NCBI GenBank assembly: GCA_944326465.1
Contig: CALVEB010000021.1
Span: 1 to 37,283, forward strand
Length of the DNA: 37,283 nt
Source: Candidatus Gastranaerophilales bacterium
GTDB taxonomy: Bacteria > Cyanobacteriota > Vampirovibrionia > Gastranaerophilales > Gastranaerophilaceae
Direction: 5' to 3'
This document shows, in pieces, positions 10,262-30,989 of this stretch; the first letter of the stretch is position 1, and each line of letters starts with the position of its first letter. The notes beneath the pieces were generated by a model, which was given only the letters and a program-made list of their open reading frames with translations, was not told the DNA's origin and ran no database searches. The position numbers and the translations under genes were made by a program.

Positions 10262-10930
10262 TTAAGCTGTAATTGTAAAATTAGGAGCCCCGCTTTTTAT
10301 TGCATTTGCAAAATTTGACGGCGGATGTTTGCGATCGCCTGCCGGAAGGCTGCCGTAAGATTTTCGGACTTTTTCAATCAGACCCGAAAGATCTTTGTTA
10401 AAATACATAGCTGAATATAAATTTACTCCGTTTTTGAGTATGTTTGCATCATTAGTTTCAAATATTCCGGGGTCTTTTGCATTTAGTGTTCTGTGAGCCA
10501 TAGAATTCAGAGATAAACAGTTTATTTCTTCCTGAATGGAACTGTCGCCATCCATGTCTTTTGCGTGTCCGGCTTCATGCAGTGTGGATTCCGCAATGGC
10601 CAGTATTACAGCTTTACTTTTGGTATCACGGTATTTCTCATTGATTTTGATTGTTTTATTATTCACATCCCATTGTGCATGAATATCATCAGAAGGAAGT
10701 TTCATAAATTGCACATTAATGTTGTTGTCTTTTATAAAATTATATGCCTGATGTCCGTTTTTAAACGGAGGTTTTGCCCCCAATTTTTTGACATATTTAA
10801 CATCATTATTGTCGAATTTTATTTTTTTTAATTCTTCCAGTGCAGCATTTATAACAGGATCTTGTTTTTCCTTTTGCTGAGTTTTTCCTGTGAAATTCAC
10901 GTTGAAATTTATTGAATTAACCCTAACCAT
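10262..10930 (-). CDS. putative HExxH zinc metallopeptidase with N-terminal NFTG motif
   Basis: A 222-residue protein. H118-E-A-G-H122 is a zinc-protease HExxH motif, and E134/E135 (SIQEE) could be the third ligand of a gluzincin-like site. The intervening DMDGDSS is acidic. The N-terminus (MVRVNSINFNVNFTGK) carries an NFTG segment that, from general knowledge, recurs at the start of many Gastranaerophilales proteins of unknown role. There is no classical signal peptide or membrane segment. The ATG is preceded, exactly 6 nt upstream, by TGC-TAATAT (extended -10), with no Shine-Dalgarno, so a leaderless message is likely. Substrate unknown. Confidence 0.65.
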   Translation of the reverse strand: MVRVNSINFNVNFTGKTQQKEKQDPVINAALEELKKIKFDNNDVKYVKKLGAKPPFKNGHQAYNFIKDNNINVQFMKLPSDDIHAQWDVNNKTIKINEKYRDTKSKAVILAIAESTLHEAGHAKDMDGDSSIQEEINCLSLNSMAHRTLNAKDPGIFETNDANILKNGVNLYSAMYFNKDLSGLIEKVRKSYGSLPAGDRKHPPSNFANAIKSGAPNFTITA

Positions 10931-22184: not shown

Positions 22185-22508
22185 ATGTCAAACGCAATTG
22201 ATATTAATGATGCAAATTTTGAAGCGGAAGTTTTAAATTCACAAATTCCTGTAGTTGTAGATTTTTGGGCGCCATGGTGCGGCCCATGCAGAAAACTCGG
22301 GCCAATTTTGGATGAAGTTGCAACAGAATTTTCTGAAAGAGTAAAATTTGTAAAAGTAAATACCGATGAAAATTTGAAAACAGCAAAAGATTATTCAATA
22401 AGCGGACTTCCAAGCCTTCTTGTATTCAAAGACGGCAAAGCACTGGAAAGATTAGTCGGGCTGATGCCAAAATCAACTATTGTTTCAAATATTGAAAAAC
22501 ATTTATAA
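22185..22508 (+). CDS. trxA: thioredoxin
   Basis: A 107-residue thioredoxin, the normal length for a stand-alone protein. The redox motif WCGPC occupies residues 31-35 (VVVDFWAPWCGPCRKLGP), and the cis-Pro loop is SGLPSLLVFKDG. It keeps ribonucleotide reductase, methionine sulfoxide reductase and other clients reduced. A strong AAAGGAG precedes ATG. It is monocistronic, divergent from the exonuclease gene and followed by a hairpin terminator. Confidence 0.97.
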   Translation: MSNAIDINDANFEAEVLNSQIPVVVDFWAPWCGPCRKLGPILDEVATEFSERVKFVKVNTDENLKTAKDYSISGLPSLLVFKDGKALERLVGLMPKSTIVSNIEKHL

Positions 22509-22580: not shown

Positions 22581-23885
22581 TTACTCAAGCAAAGTCTCTA
22601 ATATACCAATCATATATAACGGAATGTTATACAAATCTCCGTCTGCTTTATAATTTGCAAGAGATGTTCTGACAGCTTTTGGGGGCATGTATTCTTTCCT
22701 GTATTGTGCAAGACTTTTTGCTTTTAAATTCGTTGTAGCTTTTACCTCAATTGGTACAATAAGATTTTCTACCTGTAAAACAAAATCAATTTCTGCGATA
22801 TTAGAACGGCTTGTCCAATAATTTATCTGTTTATTTGTTTTATTTTTTAGCTGTTGTAAAACATATTGTTCGGTTAAAGCCCCCTTAAACTCTGTGAAAA
22901 TTTGGTTGTCTTCAATGATAGTTTTTTGGCTTAGATTAGACCGTGCCCCAAGCAGCCCAATGTCCAGTATGTATAGTTTAAAGGCTTCTAAATCTTCATA
23001 AGCTTTGATAGGTAGTCCGGGTTTTGAAATTCTGTTTATTTTATATATAAGTCCGCTGTCACGCATCCAATTAACGGCCTCTTCATATTCGCGGGCTCTT
23101 GCTCCATGTTTTATTGCTCCATAGATGAATTTTTTATTTTCTTTTGCAAGCTGTGAGGGTATGGAATTCCATAGAGCTCTGATACGCTCCGAAGTCGTTG
23201 AAGATGCATGTTTTGAAAAATCATGTTCGTATGAAATAATAATATTTTCTTGTAAAGTTCGGACTTTATTATAATCTTTTTCTTCAATAAAATTTTGTAC
23301 AACTTCGGGCATGCCGCCAATATAATAGTAATGTTTTAAAGTATATATAATTTTATCCGCAAATGATGAAATAAGAGTAAAGTTTTTGTCTTCGATAATT
23401 TTCCTGAAACGTCCTTCGCCAATTGCATCTAAAAATTCTAAAAAAGATAGAGGATAAAGTGTCATAAAATCAACTTTACCTACCGGAAATCCTGTTCCGC
23501 TGTGATGAGCAACACCTAATAAACTTCCTGCGGCAACAATGTGATATTCCGGTGCATTTTCGTTAAAATATTTTAAAGCTGTTAAGGCCTCAGGACATTC
23601 CTGTATTTCATCAAAAATTATTAATGTATTATCAGGTTCAATTTTTATTCCTGAATCTAATTCAAGGGCTGAGATTAAAAAAGGAATTTCAACACTTTTT
23701 GAAAAAGCTGTTTTTAAGTGTTCATTTCTGTCAAAACTGACATAAACAGTATTTTTGTATTCAAGCCTGCCAAATTCTTTCATCAACCAGGTTTTACCAA
23801 CCTGCCTTGCGCCTTGAATAATCAATGGTTTTCTATTTTTACCGCTTTTCCATTCTGTCAGTTGTTTTAATGCATCTCTATCCAT
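22581..23885 (-). CDS. AAA_14/DUF4143 P-loop ATPase
   Basis: A 434-residue protein with the AAA_14 N-terminal ATPase and the C-terminal DUF4143 domain. Walker A is GARQVGKT (residues 25-32), Walker B TLIIFDEIQECPEAL, and sensor-like AAGSLLGVAHHSG. The C-terminal part has EIDFVLQVENLIVPIEVKATT, the PD-(D/E)xK-like fold signature (D, E, K) of DUF4143. Proteins of this type are widespread and scattered; roles such as DNA-binding ATPase, toxin or mobile-element cargo are suggested but not settled. The upstream 283 nt contain four phased repeats. It is monocistronic. Confidence 0.85.
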   Translation of the reverse strand: MDRDALKQLTEWKSGKNRKPLIIQGARQVGKTWLMKEFGRLEYKNTVYVSFDRNEHLKTAFSKSVEIPFLISALELDSGIKIEPDNTLIIFDEIQECPEALTALKYFNENAPEYHIVAAGSLLGVAHHSGTGFPVGKVDFMTLYPLSFLEFLDAIGEGRFRKIIEDKNFTLISSFADKIIYTLKHYYYIGGMPEVVQNFIEEKDYNKVRTLQENIIISYEHDFSKHASSTTSERIRALWNSIPSQLAKENKKFIYGAIKHGARAREYEEAVNWMRDSGLIYKINRISKPGLPIKAYEDLEAFKLYILDIGLLGARSNLSQKTIIEDNQIFTEFKGALTEQYVLQQLKNKTNKQINYWTSRSNIAEIDFVLQVENLIVPIEVKATTNLKAKSLAQYRKEYMPPKAVRTSLANYKADGDLYNIPLYMIGILETLLE

Positions 23886-24168: not shown

Positions 24169-27100
24169 ATGAGTACTAATACAGTTGATAATATTTTTAA
24201 TCAATTGAAAGGCAACTCAAGATATGCAGGCTTGAGTGAGGATCAACTGTACGATATTGCTAATGAAATAAGCAAAGGCGGTATGTATAGCCGTATAGGC
24301 TCTATTTATTCTCGTAATGTAAGTATTTTAGACCCTTTCTACGGTGAAAATGCTGAGTGGGCAAAATTTACCTATGAAGAACTGATTAGAATGGAAGAAG
24401 AAGGTGTTTTAATTCCTGAAGAAGTGCTCTCATGGGCTCATTCTATGCAGGATGCAGATTCTACAAGTTATGAAACAACTCAGGTATCTGAAGATCAAGA
24501 TGCCGGAGCTATTGAACAGGAAGTAAATGATACAAATAATTCTGATGTAATTGACCTTAAAAAAGGTGCTCAGGCTTTAGTTGATAAAAATGAAGCAAAT
24601 CAGAATACTATGGCAAATCAGGTTGATGAAGTTGCTGCAATGGGAAAAGATGTTGAAAATACTTTAAACCAGGCAGAAGAACTTCAAGAAGATTCTCTGG
24701 CTAAAATCCAGAGCATTGTTGATGAATACAAAGAATTAGAAAGCAAACTTAAAAGAAATATCCCTTTATCCGAAACCGAACAACAGAGATTTAATGAATT
24801 AAGCACATTGCTTGATCAAGAAACCAAGCAGTACCAGAAAAACATGAGTGATCTGGATGTAGATTTTGACGAAATCGCATCTGCATTAAGCGAACTTGAC
24901 AAGACAACCAAACAATCTGATGAGTTAATTGAGGCAACAGATTCAATGGCTGAACAGTTATCAAACCGTGAAGCAGATCACAAATTTACAAATGTATCTA
25001 CAGCCCCTGGTTCTTATACCGGAATTGTAGGTATTATTATGAGCAGCGCACTTGCTAAGACATTGACTCAGGCTGCTCAAGAAACAACTATAACAACAGG
25101 ACAGGAAACAGAAGATGTTCAGGCTGACTTAAACGAATTAGCTGCAATGACTGATTTGACAAGAAGTATAACAGCTAATGCTCAAGCTCCGGAAACTGAA
25201 CAACCTGAAGTTTCTCCTGCTCAAACAAGAAGTGTAGAAAATCAGGCAACCGAAGGAGTAGAAAATGAAGTCCAAGATGCAGAAGGCGCTGTACAAAATA
25301 CAGCAGCAACAAATACGCAAACTACAACACCATCTCAATCTGCTGCGCAAGCACAGGCTGCACCTGTTTCAGCGGCAGCAACAGGCAATGCAGGCATAAC
25401 CGAAACTACAAATGTTGCAGAAGCTTCCGCTGATTCTTCTGTTGAGTCTGATACTCTCGGAACAAACAACAGTGAAGAATCCGGTAATGACCTTAAAGCT
25501 CAAACTCAGGAACAAATTCAAAAATGTAATGTAAGATCAGCTGAAATTGATGCAGCAGTTAACGAATTAGATCCTATTAAACAATCTGTTGAAGACATTA
25601 TCAAAGAATCAAAATTCCAGAGAAAAGTTCAAGAAATTAAAGTTAATAAATCACTTAAAAAATATGAAGAACTTTGCAACAAGCTTAAAGATGGCGAAGA
25701 ATTAACATCCGGTGAAAAACAGGAATATAAAAAGTTAAGTACTGACTTAGATAAAGACAATGGCAATTATGTCAATGGTCTTAACGAAAAAATCAACACA
25801 TTGAATGGTTACAGAAGCAGCCTCAACTATGCTATGAGTATTGCAAATCAAGGCGCAGATATTGCAAATGCAACAATAGAAATCGGTAAACAGCTTGCAA
25901 TATCAGAACTCGGCGACAGAAGCTATTTGAAGAAAACATTCTTCTATGCACTTCTTAACGATGAAAGACAAAAAGATTTATTATACGGTAAAAAAGGTGA
26001 ATCTCTCGGCCGTGACGCTATTGACCGCGGTGATGTATTAAATCTTCAGGTTAGCAGTGCAAATTCAGTATTAACAAAACAAATTCCGTTGGCTAATGCA
26101 GCACAGGAACGCTCACAAGAAATTGCACAGACTAAAAATGAATTCACAGCAAAAGTCAGTGAAATTACAAAAGGTTTACCGGAATCCGTTGCTCCTAAGT
26201 CAACTCAATATGTACAAAAAACAGGCAACAATCCATCTAATGCCGAAAATATTGAAGTTGTAGATAACGGTGAAGAACTCCAGCAGGACGGTGAACTTCA
26301 AACAAGAGCAATGCAGCGTGAAGCATCTAATCCGCCGGCTCAAGCATCAACCGAAGCATCAGGTACAGCATCTTCATCTTCAAGTGAAAGCGGCGAAGAA
26401 ATCAGCGCAGAAAACGGTAAAGATGCAGCAGCAAGTGCTGAAAAACAAGGTGAAGAAGTTAAAGGCGACACTAAGTCAACCGAAGAAGATGCAAAAGAAA
26501 TGGAAAATGTTGACAAAGAAGCTCAACAGTCAGACAAGCAACTTCAAAAAGATTCTAAGAAAATTGATAAAGATATCAAGAAAAATCAGAAAGAATTAAC
26601 ACAGAACGAAAAACAAGTACAAGAAGTACAACAAAAAATAGAAGAAGAAGCAGCAGCAATTGAAGCATTGCAAACAGAAGTCGACAGCTTAACTGCATCA
26701 GAAGAAATGGCAGCAGGTCCGGCTATGGCTGCAGCTCCTCAAACAGCAGCACCGGCAGCTCCTCAAACAGCTGCTGACGGTACACAATCTCAGGCTGCTC
26801 CTCAAGCTTCACATGCCGGTTTCAGTGCAATGGATAATGTAATGAATGGCGGGGCAGCGGCTTCAGGTACTTCAAACGACACACAAACAAAAATTGACGG
26901 TTTAAATGAACAAATCATGACAAAAACCGGTACTATTGGTATTTATTCAAGCAAATTAACATTCTTGCAGGAAAAATCTAGCAGAATTGTTAAAACAATG
27001 AATATCAATACTAAAAACTATAACAAAGCCGTACAAAAAGAACAGGAAGCAAAAGAAGAAGATCAATCAACAAGCGAAAAAGTTCTTGAAGTAGCAACTA

Positions 27101-29394
27101 AAATCGAAAGTGTAGCATCAAAAGTTGCACTGGCAGGCTTTATTGTTGGTACAACCGGTGATGTATTGATGAAAGTTATTTTACCGCCTTGGATTCCGGT
27201 AATCGGCGCTGTAATGTCACCTGTCGGCCACGCAGTAGAAGCTATCGGTAACTATGGTGTACTTGCTGCAAACGTTACCAAAATGGCAACTTATGCTGCT
27301 CAGGGTAATTTGATGGGTGCATTGATGAGTGCAGGTATGGCTGTTATGGCTGGTGCTTCAGCATTGGGCGCAACTGCTCAGGCCGCTAAAGGATTCCAGC
27401 AATTAGGTAAAAACATAGCTCAGGCTCAGGCTAGAGCAGCTGTTATGAAAGCTGCACAAGAAACCGCTAAACAAGCTGTTACCAAAACCGGTATGGAAGG
27501 TTTAAAACAAACCGGTCAGAAAATGGCAGCAGAAGGCATGGTTAAAAGTATGAAAACTGCTTCTAAGCAGGCTATTAAGCAAACTCTTAAAGCAGCCGGT
27601 CAAAAAGCTTTAATGTACACAATGACAACAATGGCTCAATCTCAAAACCAACAGCCGGAAGAAAAGAAATCAGAATTGAACATAGTTCTTTCTGACAGAG
27701 CAAAAGAAATAATTGCAGCAGGTGAAAGACGCCGTGCAAACATTCGTGCAGCATTAGAAGCTAGAAATGAAGAAGCAGCACTTCTTGATGACGGTTCAAC
27801 TACTGTTATTGAAGAAGATGCAGACGGAACAGGTAATGCAGCAGGCCGCGTAAGAACAGGTGAAGGCGCTGCAACTTCCGGTAATAACAGAAAATCTTCA
27901 GCAACACGTACTTCTTCAACTTCTGCTTCAACAAGAACTGCATCTGCTGCAAAAACAACAGGTACAACTACAACATCTGCAGCTTCTTCAACAGCTTCAT
28001 CAGCAACATCATCTGCTGCAAAATCATCAGAAAGCAGCAAAGAAGTCGATGCAAACAATGGTAAAGCAGAAGCAAGTCAAGTTGATAAAGACGCTGATGG
28101 TGTTGAAGCTGATACCGCAACAACAGAAAAAAATACCGATGAAATGGAAGAAGTTGATAAAGAAGCTCAAAAATCAGACAAGCAGTTCCAAAAAGATTCC
28201 AAAGCATTAAGCAAAGATATTAAAAAAGACGAAAAAGAATTACAAAAGAACGAAAAAGAAGTACAAGAAACACAGCAGAAAATTGAAGAAGAAATTGTAG
28301 CAGTAGAAGCTCTTCAACTTGAAGTTGACACATTAACAGCAGAACAAGAATCTTCATCAGCAACCGGTGCAGCTGCTCCTTTAAATCCTGTACAGCCGCA
28401 GCATGCAGGTTTCAGCGTAATGGAAAATATCGCAGGCGGTGCAGCAGCATCAACAACCGCAGCTACAACCGGTAATGCAGCTTCTAATCAAACTGAAATA
28501 GATGCGCTTAATGAACAAATCGGTGAAAAAACAAATGTAATTAAAATCTATTCTGACGGTTTGCTTAAAACCCAAAAAAGTTCTGATACAATAATCAAAA
28601 GAATGAATAATACTACCAAGGTATATAACAAAACCGTTGCAAAAGAACAGGCTGAAAAGCAAGAAGACCAATCAAGAAGTGAAAAAGTTCTTGAAGTTGC
28701 AACAAAAGTTGAAAGTATATCATCAGCAGTTGCAATGGCAGGTTTTATCGTTGGTACAACCGGTGATGTATTAATGAAAGTAATTTTACCGCCTTGGATT
28801 CCGGCAGTCGGTGCTGTAATGTCACCTATAGGCCATGCTGCAGAAGCTATCGGTAACTATGGTGTTGCAGCAGCAGGTCTTACAAAAGCAGCAACATACG
28901 CTGCTCAAGGTAATTTGCTCGGAGCTTTAACAAGCGCAGCTTCAGCAGTAATGGCAGGTGCTTCTGCAGTAAGTGCTACAGGTCAGGCTGTTAAAGGGTT
29001 CCAGAATATGGGTAAAAATATTGCAGCATCTCAGGCAAGAGCAGCAGCTTATCAGGGCGCAAAAGAAGCAGCTAAATCCGCTGTTACTGCTACCGGCGAA
29101 GAAGGTATGAAACAGCTTGCTCAAAAAACAGCCGGCGAAACAACTGCTAAAGCTATGAAAGCTGGCGCTAAATCTGCAATTAAAGGTACTTTAAACGCAG
29201 CTAAAAAACAGGCTCTTACATACGCTGCATCATTTGCTATGCAAAGTCAAATGAATAACCAGCAAGACTCTCAACAACAAGAACAAGAACAAAAATCTGA
29301 ATACGAAATTATCCTCTCTGACCGTTTCAAAGAAATTCAACGCAAAAATAAAAAACGTAAAGAGTATACAGCAACAAGATATGGTGTAGCATAA
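24169..29394 (+). CDS. giant coiled-coil protein with two internal duplications and hydrophobic segments
   Basis: A 1741-residue protein of unknown function with no signal peptide. Two duplications are visible. In the N-terminal half a helical unit recurs at ~186 (EYKELESKLKRNIPLSETEQ) and ~498 (KYEELCNKLKDGEELTSGEK). In the C-terminal half a ~440-residue module recurs at ~749-1190 and ~1297-1730. Each module has a charged Lys/Glu/Gln coiled coil (VDKEAQQSDKQLQKDSKK; VDKEAQKSDKQFQKDSK), an Ala/Gly linker with an HAGFS motif, more helix, then a hydrophobic Ala/Gly segment (from 989 and 1524) with 22 identical residues starting AGFIVGTTGD, and a final SDR-K-E-I segment. Between modules lies a Ser/Thr/Ala stretch (~1245-1295). 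The coiled-coil plus hydrophobic-hairpin build recalls secretion translocators such as IpaB/YopB, but this is an analogy only. Confidence 0.85.
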   Translation: MSTNTVDNIFNQLKGNSRYAGLSEDQLYDIANEISKGGMYSRIGSIYSRNVSILDPFYGENAEWAKFTYEELIRMEEEGVLIPEEVLSWAHSMQDADSTSYETTQVSEDQDAGAIEQEVNDTNNSDVIDLKKGAQALVDKNEANQNTMANQVDEVAAMGKDVENTLNQAEELQEDSLAKIQSIVDEYKELESKLKRNIPLSETEQQRFNELSTLLDQETKQYQKNMSDLDVDFDEIASALSELDKTTKQSDELIEATDSMAEQLSNREADHKFTNVSTAPGSYTGIVGIIMSSALAKTLTQAAQETTITTGQETEDVQADLNELAAMTDLTRSITANAQAPETEQPEVSPAQTRSVENQATEGVENEVQDAEGAVQNTAATNTQTTTPSQSAAQAQAAPVSAAATGNAGITETTNVAEASADSSVESDTLGTNNSEESGNDLKAQTQEQIQKCNVRSAEIDAAVNELDPIKQSVEDIIKESKFQRKVQEIKVNKSLKKYEELCNKLKDGEELTSGEKQEYKKLSTDLDKDNGNYVNGLNEKINTLNGYRSSLNYAMSIANQGADIANATIEIGKQLAISELGDRSYLKKTFFYALLNDERQKDLLYGKKGESLGRDAIDRGDVLNLQVSSANSVLTKQIPLANAAQERSQEIAQTKNEFTAKVSEITKGLPESVAPKSTQYVQKTGNNPSNAENIEVVDNGEELQQDGELQTRAMQREASNPPAQASTEASGTASSSSSESGEEISAENGKDAAASAEKQGEEVKGDTKSTEEDAKEMENVDKEAQQSDKQLQKDSKKIDKDIKKNQKELTQNEKQVQEVQQKIEEEAAAIEALQTEVDSLTASEEMAAGPAMAAAPQTAAPAAPQTAADGTQSQAAPQASHAGFSAMDNVMNGGAAASGTSNDTQTKIDGLNEQIMTKTGTIGIYSSKLTFLQEKSSRIVKTMNINTKNYNKAVQKEQEAKEEDQSTSEKVLEVATKIESVASKVALAGFIVGTTGDVLMKVILPPWIPVIGAVMSPVGHAVEAIGNYGVLAANVTKMATYAAQGNLMGALMSAGMAVMAGASALGATAQAAKGFQQLGKNIAQAQARAAVMKAAQETAKQAVTKTGMEGLKQTGQKMAAEGMVKSMKTASKQAIKQTLKAAGQKALMYTMTTMAQSQNQQPEEKKSELNIVLSDRAKEIIAAGERRRANIRAALEARNEEAALLDDGSTTVIEEDADGTGNAAGRVRTGEGAATSGNNRKSSATRTSSTSASTRTASAAKTTGTTTTSAASSTASSATSSAAKSSESSKEVDANNGKAEASQVDKDADGVEADTATTEKNTDEMEEVDKEAQKSDKQFQKDSKALSKDIKKDEKELQKNEKEVQETQQKIEEEIVAVEALQLEVDTLTAEQESSSATGAAAPLNPVQPQHAGFSVMENIAGGAAASTTAATTGNAASNQTEIDALNEQIGEKTNVIKIYSDGLLKTQKSSDTIIKRMNNTTKVYNKTVAKEQAEKQEDQSRSEKVLEVATKVESISSAVAMAGFIVGTTGDVLMKVILPPWIPAVGAVMSPIGHAAEAIGNYGVAAAGLTKAATYAAQGNLLGALTSAASAVMAGASAVSATGQAVKGFQNMGKNIAASQARAAAYQGAKEAAKSAVTATGEEGMKQLAQKTAGETTAKAMKAGAKSAIKGTLNAAKKQALTYAASFAMQSQMNNQQDSQQQEQEQKSEYEIILSDRFKEIQRKNKKRKEYTATRYGVA

Positions 29395-29438: not shown

Positions 29439-30989
29439 TTATTTTATTTCTAAATTGTTAAACATTAAAACTCCTGTTTCTCCTGCCGTAAGATTAATAG
29501 TAATTTTTTTATTTTTTATAACGGGTTCGTTTTCTGTTGACTTAATACAACGGTACCCGCTTGTTTTTTTCAATCCGGATATCTTTATATCAGTTTTTTC
29601 ATTATTCTCAAAATTTAAGTTGCCAAATACAATAACAGTAGTTTTATTATCAGTCATTGCATAAGAAAATATACGTTCGTTGCTGCTTTTTAAAGGTATA
29701 AAAGTTCCATTTGCTAAAACCGGTGCAATTTCTGCTCTGAATTTATTCGCACGGATGAATTCTTTCAAAAACTCTTTATCACTGCCGGCCGGCTTGCGTG
29801 AAAAGTTGAAGATATCTATTTTACCGCGGTGAGCAAAGTAATAATCATCGTCAGTAAAGGTTATGTCAGCTTTTTGATTTGCCCAATCATAAATATAATT
29901 GTCTCCAGTCGCAAAACCGTCGACATAGTACGCATTAACAGGCAATGTACTGTTCAGCCACAGTATCATTGTACTGTATTTAATCCCGTTTACTAAAACA
30001 GGCGAAATTTCATCATGCGTTGAAAAGCTTCCTATTACGCTTTTCGGAGAATTAAATTGTCTGGCAAGATCTTTATTAAATAAAACATGATTAATCAGTT
30101 TATCAGCCGAACTCCATTCTTTCAAATTAAAGAAACTGCCGTAATAACCGTCAAAACCGGCCTCCAGAAGTTTATCATAAGATGTGAACACCCCGTATGG
30201 CGAAACAGCATCGTGCCAGCTGTCAGAACTTTCTGCAAGCCAGAGGAATTGCGGATCTTTTTCTCTTGAATAAGAGATTAATTCTCTCCAGAATTCAGCG
30301 GGTTTGCAATGCGCAACATCTGCTCTTATGCCGTCAACTCCGAGTTCATCAATTGCAAGGTCTACAAATTCTTTATATACCCCGAAAACATCAGGATTAA
30401 TAACACTTTCACTACCTGCATTCAGTAGTCTTACATCTGTCCAATCCGCAGGCACTACAGGTAATTGCTCTTTATCTTTTACAAACAGTTCCGGTCTTTG
30501 TAAATATAAATCGTATGCTGCACAGGCCGGTAAATCAAGAATTATACGAATTCTGCGTTTATGTGCTTCCTGTACAAATTTTTTAGCCTGACTGTTTATA
30601 TCATCATTACTTTTGTCTTTTAATTGTTCATTAAGCCTGTTAAAAGAGGATGCGGCATATAGCGAACCTGCTGTGCCGAGTGCTTTTGTTTTTCCTACCT
30701 GAGTTACCGGAAGTACATGTAACATGTTTATACCGGCGTCTTTTATTTCATCAAGCCTGTCTATTGCGTTTATAAAAGTTCCGCTTTCTTCATTTAAATC
30801 AAAATCAATGATGTCATTATTATTGGTGTCTTTTGCATTAAAAGTTCTGATATTAATTTCATATATAATCGCGTTATTATCGGTGAAAAGTTTTCTTGCG
30901 TTGTTTGTATAAGCTTCCTGCGCTGCTACAGTTGTGCAAGTGTATATCAAAGTTAAAGTAGTAAATAATAATTTGTAGAAATTATTCAT
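29439..30989 (-). CDS. secreted GH13-family (alpha-amylase-type) glycosidase
   Basis: A 516-residue protein with an N-terminal signal peptide (MNNFYKLLFTTLTLIYTCTTVAAQ, cleavage ~residue 24), followed by a GH13 TIM barrel. The catalytic set is present: nucleophile D224 in DGIRADVAHCK, acid/base E253 in LWLAESS, and D326 in STHDE with H325. The first conserved region reads IILDLPACAAYD instead of the usual D-x-x-x-N-H, so the substrate-binding Asn-His is absent. A D/N-rich stretch (DTNNNDIIDFD, residues ~53-63) may bind calcium. The C-terminal ~90 residues form the usual beta domain. It probably degrades alpha-glucans in the periplasm or outside. Confidence 0.85.
   Translation of the reverse strand: MNNFYKLLFTTLTLIYTCTTVAAQEAYTNNARKLFTDNNAIIYEINIRTFNAKDTNNNDIIDFDLNEESGTFINAIDRLDEIKDAGINMLHVLPVTQVGKTKALGTAGSLYAASSFNRLNEQLKDKSNDDINSQAKKFVQEAHKRRIRIILDLPACAAYDLYLQRPELFVKDKEQLPVVPADWTDVRLLNAGSESVINPDVFGVYKEFVDLAIDELGVDGIRADVAHCKPAEFWRELISYSREKDPQFLWLAESSDSWHDAVSPYGVFTSYDKLLEAGFDGYYGSFFNLKEWSSADKLINHVLFNKDLARQFNSPKSVIGSFSTHDEISPVLVNGIKYSTMILWLNSTLPVNAYYVDGFATGDNYIYDWANQKADITFTDDDYYFAHRGKIDIFNFSRKPAGSDKEFLKEFIRANKFRAEIAPVLANGTFIPLKSSNERIFSYAMTDNKTTVIVFGNLNFENNEKTDIKISGLKKTSGYRCIKSTENEPVIKNKKITINLTAGETGVLMFNNLEIK

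Follow-up and report, generated by a model that had tools for sequence, protein, structure and literature searches.

In translocators of the SseC/IpaB/YopB/CopB type, a coiled coil is combined with a helical hairpin of weak hydrophobicity; they carry no Sec signal and come from genomes that encode a type III export apparatus. CopB measures 493 amino acids (PMC4536800). Type III substrates with transmembrane segments are kept from entering the inner membrane partly by their moderate hydrophobicity, and a class II chaperone anchor, P/VxLxxP, precedes the hydrophobic region in many translocators, not in all (PMC9993115). Flagellum-derived secretion organelles have been described as the non-flagellar type III secretion system (NF-T3SS) of Myxococcales (PMC3459982) and the basal bodies of Buchnera (PMC8109811), in which flagellar ring and export-gate genes are kept without a working flagellum and protein export has been proposed. 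A partial flagellar gene set of non-motile Gastranaerophilales was read as non-functional by Soo et al. 2014 (PMC4040986), and searches of open-licence papers turned up no description of a type III system from this order of gut bacteria, about whose contact with host or neighbouring cells little is understood. Here we describe a 1741-residue protein, which we call LONG, together with two relatives, SHORT and SMALL, and compare them with these systems. LONG is encoded in the window, the 37,283-nucleotide contig C21 (CALVEB010000021.1) of a 2.07 Mb metagenome-assembled genome of Candidatus Gastranaerophilales.

LONG is an intact open reading frame (ORF) with an ATG start (positions 24169 to 29394, plus strand, as are all its parts given below). 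Its orthologues in congeners show 53-84% identity, and since two of these congeners carry near full-length copies with 81-84% identity (L004 and L005), the ORF is not an artefact. A preliminary description made from the letters alone had proposed an A-A'-B-B' architecture built by two independent duplications, one of a helical unit and the other of a module of about 440 residues. Split-sequence BLASTP and shuffling confirmed both, with the proposed repeat coordinates correct to within a few residues. Modules B (residues 744-1189, positions 26398 to 27735) and B' (residues 1292-1731, positions 28042 to 29361) are 57% identical across 458 aligned columns (E 2e-154); their Smith-Waterman score is 1260 against a maximum of 158 among 200 shuffles. 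In the same comparisons, the duplication of A (residues 102-265, positions 24472 to 24963) and A' (residues 412-577, positions 25402 to 25899), with 25% identity and E 1e-7, gives a weaker signal than that of B and B', yet its score of 151, where shuffles reach 99 at most, is well above chance. No match was found between A and B when they were compared within LONG. Long helices appear in the model of A, and the predicted local distance difference test score (pLDDT) is mostly 70-90 across residues 441-580.

The longest run identical in B and B' has the 22 residues announced by the preliminary description, AGFIVGTTGDVLMKVILPPWIP, at residues 989-1010 (positions 27133 to 27198) and 1524-1545 (positions 28738 to 28803). 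At the DNA level 62 of its 66 nucleotides are the same and 4 differ. Among the 91 residues around the run, 72 are identical, and because 23 of these 72 differ by a synonymous codon, the identity shows constraint on the protein; recent unselected copying was rejected as its cause on the same ground.

Hydropathy, the family alignment and a low-confidence model agree on the order of elements in B: coiled coil, hydrophobic hairpin and Ala-rich helix. In the model, two long helices (module residues 7-114 and 158-253) are followed by shorter ones over the hydrophobic part. The module ends in Ala-rich helices and a basic tail, LSDRAKEIIAAGERRRA (positions 27688 to 27738), which resembles the C-terminus of SHORT in alignment A2. 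The Ala/Gly hairpin lies at residues 982-1066 in B (positions 27112 to 27366; hydropathy maxima 1.38, 1.72 and 1.64) and at residues 1517-1601 in B' (positions 28717 to 28971; maxima 1.46, 1.58 and 1.60). Over 44 aligned B regions the corresponding 85 columns have only 6% charged residues and 36% Ala plus Gly, the three peaks reach 1.24, 1.56 and 1.33 (19-residue windows), and alignment A2 contains several invariant Gly, Ala and Asn positions; the hydrophobic hairpin behind a coiled coil, noticed at first in LONG, is thus kept across the whole family. No Sec signal was visible in the 15 LONG and SHORT proteins inspected, in line with the initial impression from LONG. These proteins have few cysteines, and LONG carries low-complexity Ser/Thr/Ala linkers.

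The preliminary description had suggested looking for single-module homologues in relatives. They exist: SHORT, a paralogue of about 580-740 amino acids with one B module, occurs in relatives and also in this same genome (G000:C22:939-2786, minus strand). The double B module of LONG is found in genus g1 only. Outside g1, no more than one B is detectable in LONG, which measures about 1000-2060 amino acids, or about 450 in genus g14. Most B1 copies separate from B2 copies in the B-module tree, which argues that the duplication predates most g1 species. The B modules in the LONG protein of one congener, G005 (L041 6693-11588), group together with 100/100 support, which suggests homogenisation or a separate duplication. 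A second element joins LONG to SMALL, a protein of about 150-530 amino acids whose gene adjoins rpe at the loci examined. This N-terminal motif of about 45 residues, [YF][ST]YEEIxxMEExGVxIPEEVLxWAHSMQ, covers residues about 59-102 of LONG (positions 24343 to 24474), and it occurs in two genes per genome, LONG and SMALL, in 66 of the 73 positive genomes. The motif profile included one SMALL sequence, that of this genome, so that only its hits outside this genome serve as a test.

Of the 127 genomes in the order, 66 were matched by the B profile, as were 67 of the 244 in the phylum; all come from one family and are distributed over 13 genera. When the 127 genomes were classified by both markers, 65 had SHORT and the motif, 53 had neither, eight had the motif alone (seven genomes belong to genus g14, one to g8) and one had SHORT alone, as a weak match. 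The Fisher value for this co-occurrence is 7e-26, which given the kinship of the genomes is descriptive only. A weak match in G029 was dropped because it looks like a low-complexity Ser/Thr/Ala linker. One clade gained the set of LONG, SHORT and SMALL, which are inherited together, and has kept it almost without exception. No family was found in a Pfam search of LONG at E values up to 1, and profile searches of the proteins against Pfam, NCBIfam, PHROG and PDB gave no credible relative, as the initial absence of any recognizable domain had led one to expect. By these searches the three proteins make up what we take as a new family restricted to part of one bacterial family. The earlier suggestion of a new family of secreted or surface proteins therefore held for the new, lineage-restricted family, and a secreted or surface location was not established. 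AlphaFold models, built from alignments of window and related-locus sequences only, reached mean pLDDT values of 45 for B (9 sequences) and 58 for A (5 sequences), and they were too poor for fold assignment. Foldseek searches with these low-confidence models gave nothing below E 0.001, and so neither profile nor fold searches returned a confident match to a known family.

The genome that carries LONG also encodes a second export apparatus of flagellar type. Matches to the FlhA profile PF00771 in the order fall into three classes: class I, the flagellar one (about 850-890 bits), class II (about 670-740 bits) and class III, a detached cytoplasmic domain encoded by an ORF of about 490 residues. 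Class II is present in nearly every genome of the order, and this genome has classes II and III without class I. One cluster in it holds the class II FlhA with FliE, FliF and a FliH-like protein, another holds FliP, FliQ, FliR and a FliM/N protein, and a third holds rod genes of FlgF/G/B/C type; FlhA, FliP, FliF, FliE, FliM/N and the rod proteins were recognized by profile matches, and FliQ and FliR by gene order and sequence. Proteins with the Flg_bbr_C domain number two in each of six genomes without class I and seven in each of two flagellated genomes. In the FlhA tree, classes I and II are reciprocally monophyletic with 100/100 support and both are found in the same flagellated genomes; hence the partial flagellar set, at least as regards FlhA, is a distinct paralogous system and not a decayed flagellum. 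Soo et al. (PMC4040986) dealt with the same bacteria and probably the same genes; the FlhA tree adds that these belong to a separate paralogous class. The set resembles the Myxococcales and Buchnera machines in its retained ring and export-gate genes, and it differs from them in being a second paralogous system, kept across the order and also beside a true flagellum in flagellated genomes. The non-flagellar ring, rod and export-gate genes were located at G000:C34:11755-13731 (L056), G000:C16 (L064 9603-13159) and G000:C2 (L087 9885-12177). The class III gene, likewise near-universal in the order, encodes here a 491-residue protein in which a different N-terminus precedes the detached FlhA domain (G000:C17:16863-17885; L057 8444-9919).

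We tentatively propose, as a possibility that we would not yet call probable, that this class II apparatus exports LONG and SHORT as translocator-like substrates which insert into membranes. The two long helices of B, probably paired as a coiled coil, would hold out the weakly hydrophobic Ala/Gly hairpin, which could enter a bilayer, and LONG of genus g1 would present this module twice. LONG, SHORT and SMALL would leave the cell without Sec through the retained flagellum-derived apparatus and would serve as translocator-like pore or anchor proteins, either at the surface of the cell or on an adjacent membrane. We infer the link between set and apparatus from circumstantial evidence: the absence of a Sec signal, the translocator-like anatomy, which extends to the size of the single-module protein (about 600 amino acids for SHORT), the proximity of SHORT to class II flhA (17-19 kb in four genera; G011, G015, G018 and G026) and the occurrence of the set only in genomes without the class I protein. 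Class I FlhA was found in 0 of 11 genomes with the set against 13 of 19 without it, a comparison confounded by ancestry.

Several observations weigh against this proposal. Neither LONG (between trxA and an amylase-like gene), SHORT (near fabI and an adhesin gene) nor SMALL (beside rpe) is in an operon with export-apparatus genes, and no class II chaperone, partner translocator or injectisome genes adjoin LONG or SHORT, unlike the known translocator loci. The apparatus also occurs in genomes without the three proteins, so that these are not a core part of it. A single ancestral event may account for the 17-19 kb linkage, and likewise for the anticorrelation with flagella; in addition, a short B-like protein occurs in genus g16, which is flagellated. 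The sequences matched neither SseC nor any translocator profile, SseC being absent from the families matched by 12 B-module members; the P/VxLxxP anchor is missing in 13 of the 15 LONG and SHORT proteins, LONG included; and the low-confidence models gave no fold match. LONG also departs from known translocators in having two hairpin modules per chain and in its host, a gut member of the Gastranaerophilales. By analogy LONG and SHORT may still work like translocators, whereas membership of the SseC/IpaB family is not supported, because the defining sequence tests, on profile match and chaperone motif, failed. As for the translocator idea of the preliminary description, a plausible exporter is indeed encoded, but neither gene cluster nor chaperone motif nor proteome connects LONG with it. 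A bolder version, which we think rather unlikely, is that the clade lost its flagellum, kept the second flagellum-derived machine and evolved LONG, SHORT and SMALL as a translocon of its own, sequence-unrelated to known ones, for the membranes of neighbours or host.

The principal rival, to our judgement about as likely as export, is that LONG and SHORT stay inside the cell as cytoplasmic coiled-coil scaffolds, anchored by their hairpins in the inner membrane and organizing the pole, the envelope or a membrane domain. Export genes that do not adjoin LONG or SHORT, housekeeping genes as neighbours, long coiled coils with DivIVA and SMC profile matches and the lack of a signal peptide would all suit such a role. 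Yet those profile matches are weak, score well under the cut-offs and are of a kind usual for coiled coils, an Ala/Gly-rich hairpin with so few charged residues would be unusual for a simple anchor, and the Ser/Thr/Ala linkers and scarce cysteines suit exported proteins at least equally.

Pore-forming or cell-contact proteins of the ClyA/Hbl kind, in which long helices present a hydrophobic hairpin, share this anatomy with LONG and SHORT, and release by lysis, vesicles or some other exporter would then dispense with the apparatus. Matches of the B model in Foldseek include ClyA, SmhB, AhlB and XaxB, and a filamentous adhesin gene adjoins SHORT. None of these matches is significant, however (best E 0.2 overall, ClyA at E 1.3, from a model with a mean pLDDT of 45), there is no profile match to ClyA/Hbl/Smh toxins, from which LONG is also set apart by its size, its duplication and its large N-terminal A-A' region, and a toxin would less usually be kept, by vertical descent, in almost every member of a clade; we regard this explanation as improbable. 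No likelier, in our view, is that the hydrophobic segment forms a soluble buried helical core of large structural or tape-measure-like proteins devoid of membrane activity. The preliminary description had named such a core as the finding that would undo its hairpin; we obtained no evidence for it, and the low-confidence model fits either state. PHROG tape-measure profiles did match single members weakly (best E 5e-4, in one member), but matches of this strength are expected for coiled-coil proteins rich in Ala and Gly. Unlike phage tape-measure genes, those of LONG and SHORT keep the same place in the chromosome across many genera and have no phage genes near them, and on this synteny a phage origin was rejected.

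If the export proposal holds, LONG, SHORT and SMALL would become candidates for the membrane-active substrates that a flagellum-derived machine exports in Gastranaerophilales, and the gene set formerly taken for a non-functional flagellum would turn out to be a secretion organelle that works. Whether or not they are exported, a clade-wide family of three proteins with no known relatives offers a concrete target.

The chromosomal site of LONG is itself conserved. Genes which, by their sequences, we take to be coaBC, gmk, a histidine kinase, an MFS (major facilitator superfamily) transporter, a DnaQ-like exonuclease and trxA precede LONG one after another in the family. The thioredoxin gene trxA (positions 22185 to 22508, plus strand) marks the upstream side in L032, L033, L034, L041, L040, L046 and L044. 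Downstream there is usually, in the family, an amylase-like gene on the opposite strand, here at positions 29439 to 30989 (minus strand), with weak Pfam and NCBIfam amylase matches and the same placement in L032, L033, L041 and L046. LONG is an old gene, passed on vertically at a fixed trxA-LONG-amylase site. Between trxA and LONG lies an AAA_14/DUF4143 ATPase gene (positions 22581 to 23885, minus strand), present only in this genome among the loci compared. The LONG gene of G004 is divided between contig ends that fall within EETDETAQVPAEPAA-like tandem repeats (L045 6579-8507 and L034 7793-11847), where the assembly breaks.

Around SHORT, the adjoining filamentous adhesin (L038 7732-11574 and L099 4200-8681) has a signal-like N-terminus; that of L099 contains an LktA-family domain and that of L038 ends in a PilZ domain, an odd pairing. 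Also near SHORT is a conserved gene starting MGMAASQARYLGLTARKTNVEYEGQQ (L099 15985-17574, L100 17586-18560 and L039 1-741), for which profile searches gave no family or PDB match and whose product is possibly an export substrate. Finally, a similar short N-terminal motif of NFTG/KFKG type stands on otherwise unlike proteins encoded at positions 10262 to 10930 of the window (minus strand) and at L057 14770-15405 and L057 17763-18182; it could be a common targeting signal.
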